Positions 12,896-30,943 of a stretch of DNA of 64,000 nucleotides are shown in pieces. The position numbers were made by a program, and so were the translations under genes. The stretch is from Clostridia bacterium (GTDB lineage: Bacteria > Bacillota > Clostridia > Oscillospirales > CAG-272), in assembly GCA_017556745.1 (NCBI GenBank), contig JAFYMF010000023.1:1-64000 (forward strand), read 5' to 3'. The notes beneath the pieces are model-generated. The model made no database searches, was not told the DNA's origin, and was given only the letters and a program-made list of their open reading frames with translations. Position 1 is the stretch's first letter; every line of letters starts with the position of its first letter.

Positions 12896-14158
12896 TTACT
12901 TGTTAAGAGTCTCGAAGTAACGCTTCATCTGCTCCTCGGTAGGAGTGTAATCATTATTGGAGCAGCAGGGAAGAGTGGGCTTAGTGCCGTCAGCACCGTA
13001 GAAGGGAGAGAGACGGTCGTTCTCATACTTAGCGCAGTCATCTGCGTTTCTAAAATCGGGAATGTCGTAGGGAACACCCTTCTCAAGCATGGATCTGAAG
13101 CCGAGAATAGCTACAGAGGACATGGTGGTAGCAGCATAAATATCAAAGGGATGCTCGGGCTGTCTGTTTTCTCTTATGCAGTCGTGGAACATTCTTGCGG
13201 TGATATAGTCGCCGCCTCCGTGACCGCTTTCCTTGATGATTGCTTCGTCCTTATCGTTCCAGGAAGGCTCGTAGAAGTTGATCTCTTCTCTGCCCTCGGG
13301 AATATTCCAGTCATTGTATCTGAGCATTACCTTCTCGGTACCGCGAACATTCTCGATCTGACCCTTGGTACCGCAAACACGGTAGGAGTTACCGTGTGCA
13401 CCGAATCTGCCCCAACCGGTAAATCTGAAAACAGAATCGTCATCGTTGAGGGTGGTTATGATAGCGGAGTTATCTGCCTGATGGCTTGCGTTTGCAATAT
13501 CCTCATCGTAAGGACAGTAAATGGGAAGTGCGGTTACTCTCTTCGGAGTAGCACCGGTAGCTGCCATTATCGGACCGAGGGAGTGAGTGAGGTAATAGGT
13601 AGCACCGAGGTAATGACGCCAGTGCTCAGGGAAATACTGATATATCTTGATGAACCAGTAGTCAGCAGGGGAAACGGGATGGTTATACTCACCCTCAGCA
13701 TAAAGGATCTTACCGAGAGTACCACCCTCGCAGATTCTCTTGATCTCGCGGTTAAAGCACATCTGGGGGTAGTTTTCAGCGAGGAAATATACAGCGTTGC
13801 TCTTTTCAAATGCGCGAACGAGCTCAATACCCTCTGCCATAGTACCGTTACTGAGACACTCGGAGAATACGTGGATGCCGCGCTCAAGACACTTGATTGC
13901 GTAAGGAGCATGCTCGTGGAAGTAGTTTGCAAGAACTACTGCATCCATATCGTGCTCAATAAATTTGTCAAAATCGTCATATACGGCAAAATCATTCTCA
14001 TCAACGATCTTGTCCTTGATAAGACGCTTTGCACCGTCTTCTCTGCGCTTTTCGCTAAAATCACAGAGAGCAACAACATTTGCACCTGCAGCCTTCTGGT
14101 CGTACGCAAGGTCAGCACCGCGGCCTGCGCCGAAAATACCTACTCTGATAGGTTTCAT
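12896..14158 (-). CDS. Gfo/Idh/MocA-fold protein with GH109-like motifs, copy 1
   Basis: 420 residues. The N-terminal Rossmann domain starts with VGIFGAGRGADLAYDQ. The second half carries motifs I associate with the NAD-dependent glycosidase family GH109: LAENYPQM, YAEGEYNHP, YYLTHSLGPIM and SGHGGGDYITARMF, ending YDIPDF. The EKP motif of ordinary sugar dehydrogenases reads ECLS, so the catalytic lysine is absent. AGGAGG precedes the ATG. It is very similar to the next two genes and is probably co-transcribed with copy 2. It could be an unusual dehydrogenase or an NAD-dependent glycosidase. Confidence 0.85.
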   Translation of the reverse strand: MKPIRVGIFGAGRGADLAYDQKAAGANVVALCDFSEKRREDGAKRLIKDKIVDENDFAVYDDFDKFIEHDMDAVVLANYFHEHAPYAIKCLERGIHVFSECLSNGTMAEGIELVRAFEKSNAVYFLAENYPQMCFNREIKRICEGGTLGKILYAEGEYNHPVSPADYWFIKIYQYFPEHWRHYLGATYYLTHSLGPIMAATGATPKRVTALPIYCPYDEDIANASHQADNSAIITTLNDDDSVFRFTGWGRFGAHGNSYRVCGTKGQIENVRGTEKVMLRYNDWNIPEGREEINFYEPSWNDKDEAIIKESGHGGGDYITARMFHDCIRENRQPEHPFDIYAATTMSSVAILGFRSMLEKGVPYDIPDFRNADDCAKYENDRLSPFYGADGTKPTLPCCSNNDYTPTEEQMKRYFETLNK

Positions 14159-14237
14159 AATAAAATCCTCCTAAGACATAAGAATTAGAATATAACAAAA
14201 CTTTAAGTTATATAAACTGAATTGAACCGGGTTTCTC

Positions 14238-15503
14238 TTATAGTTCCTTTATTACCTCATCATAGAGCTTAAGCTGAGTTTCTGTAGGAACATAATCGGG
14301 GTGAGAACAACAGGGAAGTGTGGGTTCAGAACCGTCAGAGCCATAGAAGGGAGTGAGACGGTCGTTTTCCCACTTAGTACGCTCCTCCTCGTTTCTGAGG
14401 TCGGGAATATCGTAAGGAACACCTCTCTCAAGCATAGACCTGAAACCGAGAATAGCCACAGATGACATATTTATCGCCGCATAAATATTAAAGGGATGCG
14501 CGGGTTGCTTTCCGCTTCTTATGCAGTCGTGGAACATTCTTGCGGTAAGATAATCGGCACCGCCGTGTCCGCTCCTTATGATCTTGTCTTCATCAGAATC
14601 GTCCCAGGAGGGCTCGTAAAAATTGATCTCTTCTTTACCCTCGGGAATATTCCAGTCGTTGTATCTGAGCATTACCTTCTCGGTACCGCGCACGTTTTCT
14701 ATCTGTCCCTTGGTACCGCAAACGCGGTAGGAAACTCCGTGGGCACCGTACTTTGAACAGGCGGAAAATTTAAATACCGAACCGTCATCATTAAGAGTCG
14801 TTATGATGGCGGATGCATCGCCAACGTATGAAGCATTTGCAAAATCATCGTAATTAGGTGCATATACAGGGAGAGCGGTTACTCTCTTTGGGGTAGCACC
14901 GGTAGCCGCCATTATGGGGCCGATGGAGTGAGTTATATAATAGGTCTGTGCGTTGAAGTTACGCCAGTGATGACGGAAGTATCTGCACCAACGCTGAAAA
15001 TCAGTGTCTGCAGGGTCTACGGGATGATTGTATTCTCCCTCGGCATAAAGGAGCTTTCCCAGAGTACCGCCCTCGCAGATCCGCTTTATCTCACGGTTTG
15101 AGCACATCTGAGGGTAGTTTTCAGCGAGGAAATATACAGCATTACTCTTTTCAAAAGCACGAATAAGCTCAATACCCTCGGCCATAGTACCGTTACTGAT
15201 ACACTCGGAGAACACGTGGATTCCGCGCTCAAGGCATTTGATCGCGTATGGAGCATGCTCGTGGAAGTAGTTTGCAAGAACTACCGCGTCCATATCGTGC
15301 TCAATAAATTTGTCGAAATCGTCATATACGGCAAAATCGTTCTTATCGGCGATTTTTGCTTCAATAAGACGGCTGCGAGCCGCCTCTCTTCGGTTTTCGT
15401 TAAAATCGCAGAGAGCAACTATCTTTGCGCCTGCTTCTTTTTGATCATGTGCAAGGTCCGCGCCGCGGCCTGCTCCGAAAATTCCTACTCTGATAGTTTT
15501 CAT
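14238..15503 (-). CDS. Gfo/Idh/MocA-fold protein with GH109-like motifs, copy 2
   Basis: About 421 residues, close paralogue of copies 1 and 3 along its whole length, with the same GAGRGADLAHDQ start, ECISNGTM in place of EKP, EGEYNHPV, YYITHSIGPIM and HGGADYLTARMF. It differs mainly in the 190-240 and C-terminal regions. The start at 15503 matches the paralogues' MKxIRVG; twelve upstream codons are excluded. The ribosome site is weaker (GGTGAT). It has its own promoter at 15627-15655 and runs on towards copy 1 across 79 bases without a clear terminator. Confidence 0.85.
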   Translation of the reverse strand: MKTIRVGIFGAGRGADLAHDQKEAGAKIVALCDFNENRREAARSRLIEAKIADKNDFAVYDDFDKFIEHDMDAVVLANYFHEHAPYAIKCLERGIHVFSECISNGTMAEGIELIRAFEKSNAVYFLAENYPQMCSNREIKRICEGGTLGKLLYAEGEYNHPVDPADTDFQRWCRYFRHHWRNFNAQTYYITHSIGPIMAATGATPKRVTALPVYAPNYDDFANASYVGDASAIITTLNDDGSVFKFSACSKYGAHGVSYRVCGTKGQIENVRGTEKVMLRYNDWNIPEGKEEINFYEPSWDDSDEDKIIRSGHGGADYLTARMFHDCIRSGKQPAHPFNIYAAINMSSVAILGFRSMLERGVPYDIPDLRNEEERTKWENDRLTPFYGSDGSEPTLPCCSHPDYVPTETQLKLYDEVIKEL

Positions 15504-15626
15504 AATCAAATCACCATTTTTATGCAAGTTGTAAAACAAAGATCCGGGCTGAATAGTTTAAAAAACGTTATAACAGAATCGCAGGACATCGGTCAATAAA
15601 TACCGGTAATAACCCCTATACAGTAA

Positions 15627-15655
15627 ATTATAACGGATAAAAAAGAATTTGTAAA
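15627..15655 (-). promoter_or_regulatory. Promoter of copies 2 and 1
   Basis: Minus-strand TTTACA (15650-15655), 17-base spacer, TATAAT (15627-15632). The sequence TATTTACAAATTC around the -35 is shared with the promoter of copy 3. Confidence 0.6.
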
Positions 15656-15706
15656 TAGTTTTATATAGAATAATGTTTGTAAACAATTTAAAACCCAAAA
15701 TAAAAT

Positions 15707-15754
15707 AAAGAACTCCGTTTCCTGCGGCAGTTGCATCGGAGCCGGAGTTCTTTT
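15707..15754 (-). terminator. Terminator after copy 3
   Basis: Stem AAAGAACTCCG/CGGAGTTCTTT around a 25-base loop, followed on the minus strand by a T-rich run; it separates copy 3 from copy 2. Confidence 0.75.
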
Positions 15755-15764
15755 ATCTGATATT

Positions 15765-17027
15765 TTAATCCTTTATAATATTACGGTAAAGTTCAAGCTG
15801 ATGTTCAGAGGGCTTGTAATCGGGACGGGAACAGCAGGGGAGAGTAGGCGCTGAGCCGTCGGGACCGTAGAAGGGAGAGAGTCGGTCATTTTCCCACTTT
15901 ACGCGATCCTCTTCACGGTGGAAGTCGGGAATATCGTAGGGAACACCTTTCTCAAGCATTGATCTGAAACCGAGAATTGCCACAGATGACATGGTAACGG
16001 CAGAATGAAGATCGTATGGGTGGAGGGGCTGCTTGTTTTCTCTTACGCAGTTAAGGAACATTCTTGCTACGGGATAATCGGCACCGCCGTGGCCGCTCTT
16101 AATGATCTTGTCTTCATCAAAATCATTCCATGAAGGCTCATAGAAGTTTATTTCTTCTTTACCCTCGGGAATATTCCAGTCGTTGTATCTGAGCATTATC
16201 TTGTCAGTTCCGCGTACGTTTTCGATCTGACCCTTTGTACCGCAAATACGGTAAGAGTTACCGTGAGCACCGAACTTTGAGCATCCGACAAACTTGAATA
16301 CCGAATCATCGTCGTTAAGGGTTGTAATAATAGCGGAGTTGTCACCAACGTAGCATGCATTGGGGTAATCCTCTTCATATGGAGAAAAGATCGGAAGTGC
16401 GATAACCCTTTTCGGTGTTGCACCGGAGGCTGCCATAAGGGGTGCGAGAGAGTGTGTTACGTAATAGGTAGCTCCGCTGAAATGACGCCAGTGTTTTTCA
16501 AAATATCTGTATCTGCGAATGAAATCTACATCTGCCGCTCCGGTCGGATGGTTGTATTCACCCTCGGCATAAAGGATCTTTCCGAGAGACCCGCCGTCAC
16601 AAATTTTCTTCATCTCGCGATTGAAAATCATCTGTGGGTAGTTTTCCGCCAGCATGAATATAGAGGTGCTCTTTTCGTGAGCACGGATAAGCTCAACACC
16701 CTCAGCCATAGTACTGTTACTGATACACTCTGTAAGAACGTGTATACCGCGCTCAAAGCACTTAATAATGTACGGTGCGTGCTCGTTAAAATAATTTGCT
16801 ATAACTACTGCATCTAAACCGTGATCGAGGAACTTGTCAAAATCCTCGTAAGCGGTAAAATCGTTTTCGTCAATTACCTTGTCCTTTGCCAGACGTCTGA
16901 CAGCATCTTCTCTGCGGCCTTTATGGAAATCGCAAAGGGCAACTATCTTACCGCCTGCCATGTGCTGGTCATAGGAAATGTCGGCACCGCGGCCTGCGCC
17001 GAAGATACCTACTCTAATCTCTTTCAT
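15765..17027 (-). CDS. Gfo/Idh/MocA-fold protein with GH109-like motifs, copy 3
   Basis: 420 residues, the most diverged of the three tandem copies but with identical architecture: VGIFGAGRGADISYDQ, ECISNSTM in place of EKP, AEGEYNHPT, YYVTHSLAPLM, SGHGGADYPVARMF, YDIPDF and the terminal PTLPCCS. A strong AAGGAGG precedes the ATG. It has its own promoter (17091-17118) and terminator (15707-15754), so it is transcribed separately from copies 2 and 1. No signal peptide, so it acts in the cytoplasm on imported sugars or glycosides. Confidence 0.85.
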   Translation of the reverse strand: MKEIRVGIFGAGRGADISYDQHMAGGKIVALCDFHKGRREDAVRRLAKDKVIDENDFTAYEDFDKFLDHGLDAVVIANYFNEHAPYIIKCFERGIHVLTECISNSTMAEGVELIRAHEKSTSIFMLAENYPQMIFNREMKKICDGGSLGKILYAEGEYNHPTGAADVDFIRRYRYFEKHWRHFSGATYYVTHSLAPLMAASGATPKRVIALPIFSPYEEDYPNACYVGDNSAIITTLNDDDSVFKFVGCSKFGAHGNSYRICGTKGQIENVRGTDKIMLRYNDWNIPEGKEEINFYEPSWNDFDEDKIIKSGHGGADYPVARMFLNCVRENKQPLHPYDLHSAVTMSSVAILGFRSMLEKGVPYDIPDFHREEDRVKWENDRLSPFYGPDGSAPTLPCCSRPDYKPSEHQLELYRNIIKD

Positions 17028-18550: not shown

Positions 18551-18702
18551 CGGAGACAATAGTCACCGCAGTAAAATACTAACCGAATAATAGCGTGAAA
18601 TATAGATCATCACGCGTTCAAATTCAAATCATCAAATAGGCGAACATATTTGAATTTGTTTAATTTTATGTGCCGCCTTATGGCGGCGGAACGGAGTTTT
18701 TA
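18551..18702 (+). promoter_or_regulatory. Leader with four consecutive hairpins before the DUF11 gene
   Basis: In order: GCGGaGAC/GTCaCCGC (18551-18570), GCGTGA/TCACGC (about 18592-18615), an 11-bp stem CAAATTCAAAT/ATTTGAATTTG (18619-18629 with 18648-18658) and GCCGCC/GGCGGC (18672-18687) just before the ribosome site. No confident promoter was found in 18443-18550; otherwise that stretch holds nothing I recognise. Confidence 0.5.
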
Positions 18703-19551
18703 ATGCCACAATTTTTTAATCAAGCACAGCTTTCATACAGCGGTTCTGTGATCAACTCCAATATTGCTGTAGGCGAGATAAACGAGACTCTTCGGGTTAC
18801 GAAAACGGCGGTTGGAGACCGTTATTCTCCCACAGATGACGTGACCTATGTCGTCAGTATCGTCAATTCGGGTTCATCACCTATAAACGATCTTACTGTC
18901 ACCGATGACCTGGGTGGATATACTATTGGCGGGGAGACAGTTTACCCCCTGAACTACACCGACGGCTCAGCAAGTGTATATGTAAACGGTATACTTTCTG
19001 CCGCACCTGCAGTAACCGCGGGACCTCCCCTTGTTTTTACCGGTATAAACGTTCCCGCAGCGGGTAATGTTATTATAGTATATGAGGCGGCGGTCACCGG
19101 ATTTGCTTCGCCCGAGGCAGGCGGAGAAATAGTTAATACCGTTACTGTAGACAACGGATGTGCCATCGGTACTGCCAGTGAGACGGTATTTGCACAAGAG
19201 GCTCCTGAACTTACTGTAACAAAAACGGTAGAGCCGACTATAGTTTCGGAGTGCGGTAACATTACCTACAGCTTCCTGATACAGAACATAGGTAATACCG
19301 CTACCGGCGAGGCTGATAATGTTACTCTCAGAGATACCTTCGATCCCATACTGAGGAATATTGTTGTTACATACGACGGTGAGCTGCTCAGCGAGGGAGT
19401 GGATTACACCTATAATGAACTTACAGGTGAATTTTCTACTATCCCCGGGCGTATTGTTATCCCTGCCGCAACCTTTGCGCGGGATCCCGAAACCGGTCTT
19501 TGGGTTACCACTCCCGGTGTAGGTCTTCTTACAGTGAGCGGAACTATCTAA
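18703..19551 (+). CDS. DUF11-repeat protein without export signal
   Basis: 282 residues from ATG 18703 (GGAG seven bases upstream). Two beta-sandwich DUF11 repeats are visible: about 20-145, beginning LRVTKTAVGDRYSPTDDVTY, and about 165-282, beginning LTVTKTVEPTIVSECGNITY, each with the NSG/NIG and LTVTDDL/VTLRDTF strands of the family. The N-terminus PQFFNQAQLSYSGSV is polar, with no signal peptide, and no anchor ends the protein. Such short DUF11 proteins may be coat or surface components delivered by another route. Role unknown. Confidence 0.8.
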   Translation: MPQFFNQAQLSYSGSVINSNIAVGEINETLRVTKTAVGDRYSPTDDVTYVVSIVNSGSSPINDLTVTDDLGGYTIGGETVYPLNYTDGSASVYVNGILSAAPAVTAGPPLVFTGINVPAAGNVIIVYEAAVTGFASPEAGGEIVNTVTVDNGCAIGTASETVFAQEAPELTVTKTVEPTIVSECGNITYSFLIQNIGNTATGEADNVTLRDTFDPILRNIVVTYDGELLSEGVDYTYNELTGEFSTIPGRIVIPAATFARDPETGLWVTTPGVGLLTVSGTI

Positions 19552-21772: not shown

Positions 21773-21806
21773 AAAATTCCGTGTTACGGCATGTAACACG
21801 GAATTT
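21773..21806. terminator. Bidirectional terminator
   Basis: Stem AAAATTCCGTGTTAC/GTAACACGGAATTTT between the convergent TtcA-like and carboxypeptidase-like genes. Confidence 0.85.
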
Positions 21807-21809
21807 TCT

Positions 21810-23114
21810 TTATCTGTGTCTTATTGTTTTTCGGTATCTGATAACAGAGTTGAGAATAACATAAATAATGAGCAGAATGACCGATGATACCGCAGTTGCG
21901 ATAAAGAATCTGCTGGAGGCAAAAGCCTTGATCCTTTCAAGAACATACTGAAATTCGCTTCGTTTTACATCGGACGCGGCGATCAGATCCACGTTTCCCA
22001 CTATCTGATCTTCGTACATTAAAGTCACCATTCCCAGCTTCTGTCCTTTTTTTACAGGGGCTGAAACCGAGTCGCTTTCCAGCTTTATAGTCTTTTCAAC
22101 TACAAAATTAATATCGTCAGCATAGGGCATATAACATGATATTGTACCGCCGGCAACACAGGAAACATAATCTACATCATCGGACATTGTTACCGTCATT
22201 TCGGCTATTATGTCACCCTCTTTGATAACGTTTCTGTAACCGTAGCTTGAAAAAGCGTGCCTGAGAAGCTTGGTTGCCTCAACGTATGAGTATATTGTAT
22301 CGGTGCTTTCCACGTATTCGGCACCCATAACAACACACAGATATGTGGCACCATCGTATGATGCGGTGGTTGCAACCGAATATCCGCCCTGCTTTGTAAA
22401 GCCTGCACTGAGTCCACGGGCATATTTATAATAGTATTTAGTTTCAATGGCCCTTGAGATAAGTGCGTTTTTGCTGTGGATAACGCGTTCGCCCGAAATA
22501 TTGGTAGGGGGCATAATATATTTATCAAGAGAACTGTACTCCATATAGGTACTGTTCTTGTAAGCCGCCATCGCTATTTTTGCGGTATCGGCACATGTGG
22601 TGTACATGGCATCGTCATGCATTCCGCTGGCATTGGTGTAATTGGTATTAAATGCACCGAGAGATACCGCACGGGCATTCATGCGAGAGAGAAATGCTGA
22701 AAGGCTGCCGTCAATGGCAAATGCAAGAACGGTTGCCGCATCGTTGGCACCGCCAACGAGAGTTGCGGCGATAAGGTGGCGGAAGCTGATGCGCTCCCCT
22801 TCCTTGAGGCTGATATTGTTGCCCATAACATCTCGGAGCATTCTTTTGGTAACGGTAACCTCTTCGTCAAGTCTGTCAGAAAGCTGTTCTATAGCTACCA
22901 GACCTACCATCATTTTTACCGTTGCGGTAGGATAAACTCTCTCAGCCGTGTTTTCTTCAAAAATAACGGTGTCATTTTCTATATTATAAAGGTAAGCGGA
23001 GGTTGCATGCTCAAGCTTAAGCGGCTCCTCCACTGCATCTGCAGTTACATTAAAAAACGGAAGGAGCATTACTGCGGCGAGAAATACCATAAGTACCTTC
23101 TGTATTCTTTTCAC
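21810..23114 (-). CDS. DacF/PBP5-type D-alanyl-D-alanine carboxypeptidase homologue, catalytic motifs lost
   Basis: 434 residues from a GTG start (AAGGAG seven bases upstream). Signal peptide at 1-27, peptidase S11 domain about 35-285, PBP5-like C-terminal beta domain, and a transmembrane anchor about 402-422. The fold is clear, but all three active-site motifs are altered: SxxK reads A64-T-V-K67, SxN reads G122-A-N124, and KTG reads S236-A-G238. The nucleophile codon is GCA. The frame is open and well organised, so this looks like a maintained pseudoenzyme, perhaps a peptidoglycan-binding or regulatory protein. It follows ribF and ireB. Confidence 0.9.
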   Translation of the reverse strand: MKRIQKVLMVFLAAVMLLPFFNVTADAVEEPLKLEHATSAYLYNIENDTVIFEENTAERVYPTATVKMMVGLVAIEQLSDRLDEEVTVTKRMLRDVMGNNISLKEGERISFRHLIAATLVGGANDAATVLAFAIDGSLSAFLSRMNARAVSLGAFNTNYTNASGMHDDAMYTTCADTAKIAMAAYKNSTYMEYSSLDKYIMPPTNISGERVIHSKNALISRAIETKYYYKYARGLSAGFTKQGGYSVATTASYDGATYLCVVMGAEYVESTDTIYSYVEATKLLRHAFSSYGYRNVIKEGDIIAEMTVTMSDDVDYVSCVAGGTISCYMPYADDINFVVEKTIKLESDSVSAPVKKGQKLGMVTLMYEDQIVGNVDLIAASDVKRSEFQYVLERIKAFASSRFFIATAVSSVILLIIYVILNSVIRYRKTIRHR

Positions 23115-23141: not shown

Positions 23142-24092
23142 TTAAACCTTGACACCGGAAGAAAAATATTCCAGTGCTGCCTCTTTGTCCTGTTTTATCT
23201 GCTCTGTCAGCTCATGGGGAGAAGAAAAACGAATCTCGTCTCTGAGCCGTTTGTAAAAAGATACACGGACAGACCTGCCATAGAGCGATCCGTCGTAATC
23301 TATTATGTGGGTTTCACTGTTTATACGTCCGTCACCGTCAAAGGTTGGACGGTACCCTATATTGGTCACGGCTGGGAACTTCCCTTTATCAGTTTCAACG
23401 ATAGAGGCGTATATTCCTGTTTTTGGGATGATATGACCTGCGGGAAAATTCTGGTTTATAGTAGGTATTCCGAGAGTACGGCCAAGCTGTTTGCCCTGTA
23501 CAACAGGGTAATTTATCGAGAAAGGACGACCGAGAAGCTCTGCCGCCTTGTCGGTATTTCCGCTTTCTATAAGCTGACGTATACGGCTGGAGGATACTAC
23601 TCCGTCCCCGATAGTGACCGCAGGGACGATATCTGTGTTTGCACCGTGACTGTCCATCAACTGAAACAGAGTTTGTGCATCGCCGCTTCCGTTTTTACCG
23701 AATCTGAAGTTAAAACCGCATACTGCCGTTTTTGCGTTCAACCTTTTTATAAGAGTATCTGACACGAAATCCTCGGGAGAGGTATTGCGTATGCTATCAA
23801 AATGCTCAAGCACAGCGTAGTCTATTCCCGCCTTGGCAAAGAGTTCAAGCTTTTCCTCAAATGAGGTCAGATACAGTGAGTCGCTTTTCACCGAAGGTTG
23901 TTCAAACAGACTCCAAACGATTGCAACAGCATCTTGTCCTGATGCTATGAGCCTGTCCCTTTCACAAACCGTCATGTCAAAGAGACGTCTGTGTCCAAGA
24001 TGAACACCGTCAAAAATACCGAGTGCCACCGCAGACGGTCTTAGCGGCGGCGGACACTCGGTGTTGTTGTTTTTCAGATCAAAAAATACCAT
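23142..24092 (-). CDS. ribF: Bifunctional riboflavin kinase/FAD synthetase
   Basis: 316 residues. The N-terminal FAD synthetase domain has ALGIFDGVHLGHRRLF (HxGH-type nucleotidyltransferase site; Ile replaces the usual Asn in GNFDG), CGFNFRFGKNGSGD and SSSRIRQLIESGN. The C-terminal riboflavin kinase domain has GRPFSINYPVVQGKQLGRTLGIPTIN (shown here only as a pattern: G-x-x-LGR-x-GIPTxN) and NIGYRPTFDG. It makes FMN and FAD. It starts 11 bases after ireB and precedes the carboxypeptidase homologue. Confidence 0.93.
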   Translation of the reverse strand: MVFFDLKNNNTECPPPLRPSAVALGIFDGVHLGHRRLFDMTVCERDRLIASGQDAVAIVWSLFEQPSVKSDSLYLTSFEEKLELFAKAGIDYAVLEHFDSIRNTSPEDFVSDTLIKRLNAKTAVCGFNFRFGKNGSGDAQTLFQLMDSHGANTDIVPAVTIGDGVVSSSRIRQLIESGNTDKAAELLGRPFSINYPVVQGKQLGRTLGIPTINQNFPAGHIIPKTGIYASIVETDKGKFPAVTNIGYRPTFDGDGRINSETHIIDYDGSLYGRSVRVSFYKRLRDEIRFSSPHELTEQIKQDKEAALEYFSSGVKV

Positions 24093-24103
24093 TATTTATC
24101 AGT

Positions 24104-24361
24104 TCAGCACCCAAGATATGTCTTAACGAGTGCGTTGAGAAGCTCGTCTCTGTCAAGACGGCAGATAAGACTGCGGGCGTTCTTATAGTTGGTAATATAG
24201 GTAGGATCCTCCGAGAGAATGTAGCCTACGATCTGATTAATAGGATTATAGCCCTTTTCCATCAGGGCCTCGTATACCGTGCGGAGCACGTAATGCATCT
24301 CCTGTTCTTTTTCCGTCTGTATCGGGAAAGTACGGGTGGATTCATTTCTGCTTTCTGCCAT
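24104..24361 (-). CDS. ireB: IreB family regulatory phosphoprotein
   Basis: 85 residues. The core matches the IreB family (formerly UPF0297): [34 protein letters not shown] and [15 protein letters not shown]. The Thr-rich N-terminus (NESTRTF) fits the segment phosphorylated by the PASTA kinase IreK in enterococci, where IreB affects envelope stress and cephalosporin resistance. AAAGGAG precedes the ATG. First gene of the minus-strand unit with ribF and the carboxypeptidase homologue. Confidence 0.93.
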
Positions 24362-24405: not shown

Positions 24406-24434
24406 ATTATAAACTATTGTTTTTCGTATTTCAA
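24406..24434 (-). promoter_or_regulatory. Promoter of the ireB unit
   Basis: Minus-strand TTGAAA (24429-24434), 17-base spacer, TATAAT (24406-24411), 45 bases before the ireB start. Confidence 0.65.
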
Positions 24435-28038: not shown

Positions 28039-28308
28039 TTAGTCGATGATAGGGGATGATAATATCTTGAAAAGTATTGCTGTTCTTTCCTCGCCGTTGA
28101 TAGCAAGATCAACAAATGAGGGAGAACAGGAAATACTAATCTTGTCCGGTACGAGGAAAGAACCTGCAATAGCGATAGCCTTTACTGCCTGGTTAACAGC
28201 GCCTGCGCCTATTGCTTGAATACAGACCTCTTTCCCTTCCCGAATGATACCGGCAAGTGCTCCGGCGACCATGTTGGGATTAGACTTTGAAGATACTTTC
28301 AGTTCCAT
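28039..28308 (-). CDS. spoVS: Stage V sporulation protein S
   Basis: 89 residues. The whole protein matches SpoVS: LKVSSKSNPNMVAGALAG, IQAIGAGAVNQAVKAIAIA and INGEERTAILFKIL. It is a small Alba-like fold protein that affects septation and coat assembly in Bacillus. ATG 28308 is chosen because AGGAG is eight bases upstream; a GTG three codons earlier overlaps that site. It is downstream of ymdB and rny, as in other endospore formers. A perfect 18-base palindrome lies just before the ribosome site. Confidence 0.95.
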   Translation of the reverse strand: MELKVSSKSNPNMVAGALAGIIREGKEVCIQAIGAGAVNQAVKAIAIAGSFLVPDKISISCSPSFVDLAINGEERTAILFKILSSPIID

Positions 28309-28324
28309 TGTGCACACTCCTGTA

Positions 28325-28342
28325 GTTTTATGTACATAAAAC
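28325..28342. promoter_or_regulatory. Perfect 18-base palindrome upstream of spoVS
   Basis: GTTTTATGTACATAAAAC reads the same on both strands. Its end is about five bases from the spoVS ribosome site. It could be an operator for a dimeric regulator, or a hairpin that limits ribosome access. No consensus for a known regulator is recognised. Confidence 0.6.
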
Positions 28343-28426
28343 GGTATGCCGGACTGTATTGTATTTCTGCGTATGGTCTATGTTTTATGGTTTGTAATGT
28401 GTTTTGACCGCTCTGCGGCCTGTATA

Positions 28427-29200
28427 TCAGATTTTTTCTCTGATTCTCTCGATTGATACGGTACGTGTACCATCAAGGGTAATGATGGCTCCGCACAGAT
28501 AAATGTCTCCCTCAGCGGGGGCAAATCTTACCGGGAGTCTTGTTCTCAGCTTACGTATGACCTCGTCCTTTCGAACTCCCAGAATTCCACCGTCAGGACC
28601 GCACATGCCGAGATCGGTTATAAAAGCGGTACCACCGGGAAGTAACTTTTCATCAGCAGTCTGCACATGAGTATGTGTACCGACGACTGCATTTACTCTG
28701 CCATCAAATTCGTATGCCAGAGCCATTTTTTCAGAGGTCGCTTCTGCATGGAAATCAACTACGGATATATCGTAGCTGCCGTGCTCTCTGTCAAGAATTT
28801 TCTCAAGTGTCTCAAATGGACAGGACAGGGGCTCCATGTATACCGTACCGAGAAGACTTACGGTAAGAAGTCTGTAGCCTGTCACATCGGTTATCGTGTA
28901 GCCTTTTCCGGGATTAGCTGATGGGTAATTTGCCGGTCTGAGGAGAACGTCGCTTTCATCAAGCATTTCTCTGAGGTCATTTTTCTTCCAGATATGGTTA
29001 CCCGATGTTATAACATCAACACCGCCCATGAGCAGTGTTTTTGCATCTTTTGGGGAAAGACCGTTGCCGCTGCTGGCGTTTTCTCCGTTTGCAATAACGG
29101 TATCGATCTTCAGTTTGCTTCGCAGATTCCAGAGACATTCGGACAGTCGTGTTGTTGTATGCTCTCCTACAACGTCTCCTATAGTAAGAATTCTTATCAA
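28427..29200 (-). CDS. ymdB: YmdB-type metallophosphoesterase (TIGR00282)
   Basis: 257 residues from a TTG start; the in-frame reading has no earlier or nearby ATG. The family motifs are complete: IGDVVG (D9), IANGENASSGNGL, TSGNHIWKK, DFHAEATSEKMA and GTHTHVQTADEKLLPGGTAFITD as a pattern. In Bacillus YmdB hydrolyses cyclic nucleotides and affects biofilm and motility choices and RNase Y-dependent mRNA levels. It is placed between rny and spoVS, the conserved order. Confidence 0.94.
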   Translation of the reverse strand: MIRILTIGDVVGEHTTTRLSECLWNLRSKLKIDTVIANGENASSGNGLSPKDAKTLLMGGVDVITSGNHIWKKNDLREMLDESDVLLRPANYPSANPGKGYTITDVTGYRLLTVSLLGTVYMEPLSCPFETLEKILDREHGSYDISVVDFHAEATSEKMALAYEFDGRVNAVVGTHTHVQTADEKLLPGGTAFITDLGMCGPDGGILGVRKDEVIRKLRTRLPVRFAPAEGDIYLCGAIITLDGTRTVSIERIREKI

Positions 29201-29235
29201 AACAGCGCTCTTTTCTTAATGACTTTTTCAAAGAA

Positions 29236-29276
29236 ACACGGCGGGAAAGCTCTGATATAGCGTTCCCCCGCCGTGT
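29236..29276 (-). terminator. Terminator-like hairpin between rny and ymdB
   Basis: 10-bp stem ACACGGCGGG/CCCGCCGTGT followed on the minus strand by TTTCTTTG. The T-run is broken, so termination may be partial and some transcripts may continue into ymdB and spoVS. Confidence 0.65.
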
Positions 29277-29349
29277 AAGTTGCTATGTTGCGTAAGCGCA
29301 GGGCCGTTATTCGGGGGATTACCCCGGAAAGGGTGTAGCGTTTAGCGAT

Positions 29350-30900
29350 TTATTTTGCGAAATCTATTGCTCTGCTCTCACGAATAAGGTTGACCTTGAT
29401 CTGTCCGGGATATTCAAGCTCGGACTCTATCTTGGCAACTATATCACGGGCAAGCTGATGCATCTCTGCATCGCTGACCTGCTCGGGCTTGACCATTATG
29501 CGGATCTCGCGGCCGGCCTGAATAGCGAAAGTCTTTTCAACTCCCTCAAAGCCCTTTGCGATTTCTTCAAGCTTGGTAAGGCGCTTGATGTAGTTTTCAA
29601 GCTCCTCTCTGCGTGCACCGGGACGTGCGGCGGAAACCGCGTCGGCAGCCTGTACGATCATTGCTACGAGGGTTGTGGGCTCAACGTCACCGTGGTGAGC
29701 CTCGATTGCGTGGATAACTTCTTTATTTTCCTTGTACTTACGTGCTACATCAACACCGATCTGTACGTGAGAGCCCTCAACCTCCTGGGTAAGAGCCTTA
29801 CCGATATCGTGAAGAAGACCTGCACGGCGGGCAAGTGTGGAATCGATACCGAGCTCATCTGCGATTACGCCGGAGAGGTAAGACACCTCAATGCTATGCT
29901 GAAGAACATTCTGTCCGTAACTTGTTCTGAAGCGGAGACGTCCGAGAAGACGTACCAACTCCTGATTGAGTCCGTGAACACCGGTCTGAATAACAGCCTT
30001 TTCACCTGCGACCTTAATAACCGCCTCAACCTCTTTACGAGCTTTTTCAACAGTTTCTTCAATTCTTGCGGGATGTATACGGCCGTCCGAGATCAGCTTC
30101 TCAAGAGCGATTCTTGCGATCTCACGGCGAACAGGATCAAATGCGGATATTGTAATTGCTTCGGGAGTATCATCAATTATCAGATCTACACCGGTAATGG
30201 TTTCGATGGTTCTGATATTACGTCCCTCACGGCCGATGATCCTACCCTTCATCTCATCGTTGGGAAGGTTAACGACGGATACTGTGACCTCACCTACATG
30301 ATCGGGAGCGCAACGCTGTATTGCAAGAGAAAGTATATTCTTAGCCTTGGTGTCAGCCTCGTCCTTAAACTGCGCCTCAAGCTCCATCATGCGGATAGCC
30401 ATCTTGTGCTTAACTTCGCCCTCAATGCGAAGCATAAGCTCTTCTTTTGCCTGGTCTGCAGAAAGACCGGATAATTTTTCAAGGACCGAAATCTGTTTGT
30501 CGAGAGCCTCACGCGCTTCTGCGGCGAGCTGTTCGTTTTCTTTGATCTTACGGTCAAGACTAGCTGCTTTTTCCTCAACCTGTTCGGTCTTACGGTCAAG
30601 CTGCTCTTCCTTCTGGGTAAGTCTTGTTTCGAGACGGGAAACTTCTTTACGACGTTCTTTTATCTCGTTTTCGGACTCTGTTTTGCTTTTGAGAATTTCC
30701 TCCTTGGCTTCAAGGAGAGCTTCTTTTTTCTTTGTTTCTGCGGTTTTGATACCTTCTTCGACGATTCGCTTTGCCTGGAGCTCTGCGGAACCGATCTGAG
30801 CTTCTGCTACATTTTTACGATATAAAAAACCAGCGGCTGTTCCGGCGATAAGTCCTACCACCGCGGCAACTATGATCAATATTATTGCTAGCGGGCCCAA
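29350..30900 (-). CDS. rny: Ribonuclease Y
   Basis: 516 residues if started at TTG 30900, which lies eight bases after AGGAGG; a GTG at 30909 touches that site. An N-terminal membrane helix (about 2-25) is followed by a long coiled coil rich in Glu/Lys (about 30-200), a KH domain with [15 protein letters not shown], and an HD domain with [17 protein letters not shown] and AIEAHHGD. It is the membrane-bound endonuclease that starts mRNA decay. Both rny and ymdB use TTG, which may keep expression low. Confidence 0.95.
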
Positions 30901-30943
30901 ATAAAACACCTCCTGTTAGATTTTTGTTTTGAAAATATTCATT

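Follow-up and report, generated by a model that had tools for sequence, protein, structure and literature searches.

A conserved D,D-carboxypeptidase homologue lacking catalytic residues, encoded beside ireB and ribF in Clostridia

The 64,000-nucleotide stretch of a Clostridia bacterium genome analysed here (order Oscillospirales, contig JAFYMF010000023.1), hereafter the window, carries on its minus strand (21810–23114) a gene with a GTG start whose 434-aa product has the fold of DacA/DacF-type D,D-carboxypeptidases of the S11 family without their catalytic residues, as judged from the open reading frame, Pfam, alignment and an AlphaFold2 (AF2) model. This protein, referred to below as pseudo-S11, is almost certainly devoid of D,D-carboxypeptidase activity and very probably has a selected, non-catalytic role, both conclusions being drawn from sequence. 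The best explanation, put forward tentatively, is that it is a membrane-anchored protein that binds the wall or a partner and works with control by the PASTA kinase and IreB. Pseudoenzymes of the LytM fold are already known in the peptidoglycan machinery; in the openly licensed literature searched, no description of an S11 or PBP pseudoenzyme of such kind was found, nor of a clade-wide dead D,D-carboxypeptidase kept beside ireB.

The pseudo-S11 start codon is preceded by an AAGGAG Shine-Dalgarno sequence, and the frame contains no internal stop. The protein begins with a predicted signal peptide (about residues 1–26; 23037–23114, minus strand), seen as a hydrophobic helix in the sequence and in the model and with a cleavage site placed by inspection only, followed by a Peptidase_S11 domain (residues 36–266; 22317–23009, minus; PF00768, E = 3e-27), a PBP5_C domain (residues 291–385; 21960–22244, minus; PF07943, E = 4e-10) and a C-terminal membrane helix with a short basic tail (residues 402–433; 21816–21911, minus), apparent as hydrophobic sequence and as a helix of the model. 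Both Pfam matches are above cut-off; S11 carboxypeptidase models of NCBIfam also match, every one far under its cut-off. The AF2 model, computed from a 78-row alignment of relatives, has a mean pLDDT of 95.9, and structural comparison returned S11 enzymes throughout, with Z scores of 30–35 to solved S11 structures, including B. subtilis 3mfd as the best match (Z 35.2), PBP6 (Z 34.4) and the Streptomyces K15 DD-transpeptidase (Z 34.2, rmsd 1.8 Å over 247 residues). A sequence profile likewise retrieves PBP5-type chains (4k91, E 1e-62). In its two-domain fold, signal peptide and C-terminal anchor, pseudo-S11 is thus like the S11 D,D-carboxypeptidases PBP5/DacA, PBP6/DacC and B. subtilis DacB, and the initial annotation, which had described an intact S11 fold, signal peptide, anchor and clean frame, is borne out by Pfam, the model and the reading frame.

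What sets pseudo-S11 apart from these enzymes is a remodelled cleft. D,D-carboxypeptidases form an acyl-serine intermediate via their nucleophilic Ser, and in active enzymes the KTG Lys and Thr together with the SxN Ser keep the carboxylate of D-Ala in place and contribute to catalysis. In an alignment with active S11 proteins, the window protein reads A64-T65-V66-K67 at the SxxK position (22914–22925, minus), G122-A123-N124 at the SxN position (22743–22751, minus) and S236-A237-G238 at the KTG position (22401–22409, minus), none of which conforms to its motif. The statement that all three motifs are lost is therefore correct for the catalytic Ser, the SxN Ser and the KTG Lys and Thr, but not for Lys67, Asn124 and Gly238, which are still present in the alignment and are also what the wider clade retains. 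The surrounding residues (P62, M69, N124-D125-A126, G234, G238, T240) align gap-free, and hence SxxK, SxN and KTG do not lie elsewhere in the protein; these flanks and the fold match rule out relocated motifs. Pseudo-S11 is also present, in clean frames and at 87% and 67–69% identity, in both other genomes of the genus, the public congeners being MAGs labelled 'Clostridia bacterium' from the colon of goats and the rumen of yaks. Their motifs have changed in the same way (A-T-V-K / G-A-N / S-[AS]-G) and no intact motifs occur in close relatives, so that the changes are common to three species and an isolated degenerate allele is ruled out.

Relatives were gathered by searching 295 genomes of the family, 295 of the order and 291 of the class, by a contig scan and from fetched regions. 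In a tree of S11 relatives built without the motif columns, 93 of them form one side of a branch with an SH-aLRT of 97; the window protein was the bait in this sampling, and proportions within the clade are not population frequencies. The pseudo-S11 gene lies 27 bp downstream of ribF, encoding riboflavin kinase / FAD synthetase (23142–24092, minus; PF01687, PF06574), itself separated by 11 bp from ireB, the first gene of the cluster (24104–24361, minus; PF06135, E = 6.5e-37), whose product has an N-terminal T-R-T-F. The order noted initially, with the gene following ireB and ribF, is thus confirmed by Pfam, and it is widely conserved in the clade: ribF is directly upstream of pseudo-S11 in 79 of 93 members and ireB upstream in 59 (flanks were shorter than 2.2 kb in 21 of the 34 remaining members), versus neither gene upstream in any of 30 members of an intact comparison group. 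By gene neighbourhood (59/93), pseudo-S11 accordingly falls in with the PASTA kinase-IreB module. Within the flanks examined, ireB was not found near ribF-pseudoS11 in two related families. Six genomes of other families (L208, L209, L211–L214) have an ireB that does not adjoin ribF, for which reason the three-gene arrangement looks derived.

Two possible signals border the cluster, each of a type no more numerous than in shuffled sequence: a promoter-like match upstream of ireB (TTGAAA, 17, TATAAT; 24406–24434, minus) and a 16-bp inverted repeat with a T tail, a possible two-way terminator, between pseudo-S11 and a convergent PP-loop gene (21773–21807). At five loci of one genus (L066, L067, L068, L069 and L073), pseudo-S11 directly follows a short RibF match of about 140 aa, which in four of them is preceded by an ORF of about 320 aa; that genus may have a split or divergent RibF.

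IreB and pseudo-S11 also co-occur. Among 184 genomes of the window's family that are at least 90% complete, IreB is found in 134 and pseudo-S11 in 124, leaving out of the latter count G171 and G860, whose low-scoring matches were judged by score and length to be active-type paralogues. Both proteins are encoded in 123 genomes, IreB only in 11 (in one of which, G230, ireB is near a contig end), pseudo-S11 only in 1 and neither in 49. The Fisher p of 1e-32 by genome is inflated by shared ancestry; at the genus level it is 0.0006, with 52 genera having both, 3 IreB only, 3 neither and 0 pseudo-S11 only, genus g23 being scored as both on G855, whose pseudo-S11 sits on another contig. Co-occurrence thus also associates pseudo-S11 with the PASTA kinase-IreB module. 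All nine genomes examined among those without both proteins retain ribF, and a single deletion spanning the operon is therefore ruled out as the cause of their joint absence; on a RibF tree, which has few supported branches, the 'neither' state needs 6 changes. In five examined IreB-positive genomes ireB adjoins ribF and pseudo-S11 is absent, and since the flanks examined around ribF-pseudoS11 in the two related families showed no ireB, neither protein strictly needs the other. Near-complete genomes of g28, g37, g59 and most of g23 have no IreB match and no pseudo-S11, and MurA control in these genera is worth a look.

From gene order and co-occurrence, a functional tie between pseudo-S11 and IreB is plausible, if somewhat short of probable. 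The protein could instead have an unrelated structural role, for example as a membrane-to-wall tether or scaffold, with ireB and ribF as mere operon neighbours. Its fold, anchor and PBP5_C domain are retained, as such a role would have it, co-transcription need not imply a single pathway, and IreB-only and pseudo-S11-only states both exist; yet IreB and pseudo-S11 vanish together while ribF, located between them, stays, and this alternative is considered unlikely.

The search for an active paralogue, advised at the outset, yielded two further S11 genes in the same genome, both motif-intact: one at C49 (S-V-T-K, S-A-N, K-T-G) and one at C6 (S-T-T-K, S-A-N, K-T-G). The presence of these genes would allow pseudo-S11 to pair with one of the two carboxypeptidases or to regulate it allosterically, and there is a precedent in another fold, the degenerate LytM protein Csd2 pairing with the active Csd1 in Helicobacter pylori (PMC5053510). 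More generally, degenerate LytM regulators such as EnvC, NlpD and Csd2 show that the fold of a wall enzyme can become that of a regulator (PMC5053510). Pseudo-S11 is like them in being a wall-enzyme fold that was kept after loss of its catalytic residues, and unlike them in fold and chemistry, and in that their partners are known. Against a regulator of this sort, however, the only S11 protein detected in G022 (96% complete) is fully degenerate (Q-T-A-K / G-A-N / L-V-G), with no active S11 match, and pseudo-S11 is more tightly conserved than the active paralogues. G127, which shares its genus with G022 (g21 in the window's family), is likewise near-complete and has a single S11 match; locus L179 belongs with this observation. 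Because no active paralogue was detected in G022, regulation of an active carboxypeptidase, which had been raised from the sequence, is disfavoured as a general role and is held to be distinctly unlikely. In these genomes, an S11 match is not enough to count a protein as a carboxypeptidase.

The motif changes of the wider clade give an order to the losses. KTG is found in 0 of 93 members, the Lys position being Asn in 74 and Ser in 12, so that most read N-[AS]-G. At SxN, the Ser is kept in 10/93 and the Asn in 90/93, and at SxxK the Lys is kept in 92/93 and the Ser nucleophile in 75/93, versus an intact SxxK, SxN Ser and KTG in 30/30 of the comparison group. The state of the SxxK Ser requires 13 changes on the clade tree, and Gln and Asp are two more replacements of this residue, seen in the later-fetched loci L179 and L181. 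Given clade-wide KTG and SxN losses and repeated loss of Ser, the process was stepwise: the lineage lost the KTG Lys and Thr and the SxN Ser first, as old changes common to the clade, and the nucleophilic Ser later and many times. The window's Ser-to-Ala change is genus-level and represents one case of this repeated loss, and the three independent losses supposed by the initial annotation are thereby replaced by a succession. An apparent coupling between loss of the Ser and loss of the Asn at the KTG position (Fisher p 2e-5) was not significant on independent pairs and was set aside. The best class-wide matches, some from other families of the order, were intact and without ribF at 29/29 loci examined; the pseudo-S11 clade therefore seems confined to some families of the window's order.

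Remnant or altered catalysis is very unlikely. It would require that orthologues of the S-T-V-K / G-A-N / N-[AS]-G type hydrolyse a different bond and that the window protein use another residue. The near-universal retention of Lys67 and Asn124 fits this idea, as does the conserved N-[AS]-G that replaces KTG, but the nucleophilic Ser, the KTG Lys and the SxN Ser are all missing from the window protein, and the 13 changes at the Ser imply, given its repeated loss elsewhere in the clade, that the role common to the clade does not need it.

Positions that hardly vary in the intact long-type group but differ in the clade (T66, S99, S122, H170, Y171, T215, K236 and T237, window numbering) concentrate on motif and adjacent positions, i.e., the cleft, where newly conserved clade residues include G98, M170, N214 and N236; the structural core is unchanged (P62, N124, G136, M145, N161, T172, D176, G234, G238, A352-P353). 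These conserved replacements suggest that the cleft still serves in binding. Between the window genome and its nearest congener, pseudo-S11 has a dN of 0.068 and a dS of 1.8, giving a dN/dS of 0.038, and its S11 part, 92.5% identical, gives 0.025; for the same genome pair the two active paralogues come to 0.068 and 0.065 and part of ribF to 0.18, all of these ratios being rough since dS is near saturation. Amino-acid identity agrees, at 87% for pseudo-S11 versus 75% and 81% for the active paralogues. Purifying selection at a dN/dS of about 0.04, below that of the active paralogues even if dS is near saturation, bears out the earlier proposal of a selected pseudoenzyme. A decaying gene, for which the lost motifs alone would speak, is ruled out in practice by a clean frame and the same motif changes in three species at the identities given above, together with this low ratio.

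The favoured reading, a non-catalytic binding protein tied to PASTA-kinase/IreB control, draws on what else the genome encodes. IreB is a known brake on cell-wall synthesis. Besides ireB, which lies two genes upstream of pseudo-S11 and whose product retains the N-terminal T-x-T-F motif, the genome has genes for a PASTA-repeat Ser/Thr kinase of 559 aa, with an rsgA-like GTPase gene after it (both read from translations), and for two MurA/AroA-family proteins (PF00275), as in the PASTA kinase-IreB/ReoM-MurA system; an extracytoplasmic pseudo-carboxypeptidase is absent from accounts of that system in the literature searched. In Listeria, the phosphosite of ReoM is Thr7 and unphosphorylated ReoM promotes ClpCP-dependent degradation of MurA, and muropeptides and lipid II elicit a response from PASTA kinases (PMC7286690). 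In Enterococcus, IreB directly inhibits MurAB (PMC12077105).

Pseudo-S11 would then be a secreted, membrane-anchored D,D-carboxypeptidase fold unable to form the acyl-serine intermediate, which most likely binds a peptidoglycan stem, a partner protein or lipid II on the external side of the membrane and may belong to the PASTA-kinase/IreB circuit governing how fast peptidoglycan precursors are made; its ligand, its contact with the kinase and its effect on IreB or MurA are all things that we infer. The more specific hypothesis of a wall sensor, in which pseudo-S11 recognises peptidoglycan stems or lipid II and passes the signal to this circuit, is doubtful. A point against the favoured reading is that IreB is cytoplasmic and pseudo-S11 outside, and any link would therefore be indirect. 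If the link to IreB holds, pseudo-S11 becomes a candidate for sensing the state of the wall, or for an adaptor role, in a conserved precursor-supply pathway. If the whole reading is true, this central Gram-positive pathway of wall control would have an outer arm that has gone unrecognised and that arose from an active carboxypeptidase in the window's order.

Other features of the window include, on the minus strand at 12896–17027, three similar tandem ORFs with a IRVGIFGAGRGADLA-like dinucleotide-binding start, which are probably duplicates of a Gfo/Idh/MocA-type oxidoreductase, and, on the plus strand at 18670–19551, an ORF with matches to DUF7507/DUF11-type repeat domains, likely a surface protein. 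Three consecutive ORFs on the minus strand at 28039–30909 resemble SpoVS, YmdB and RNase Y, as judged from inspection of their translations only.
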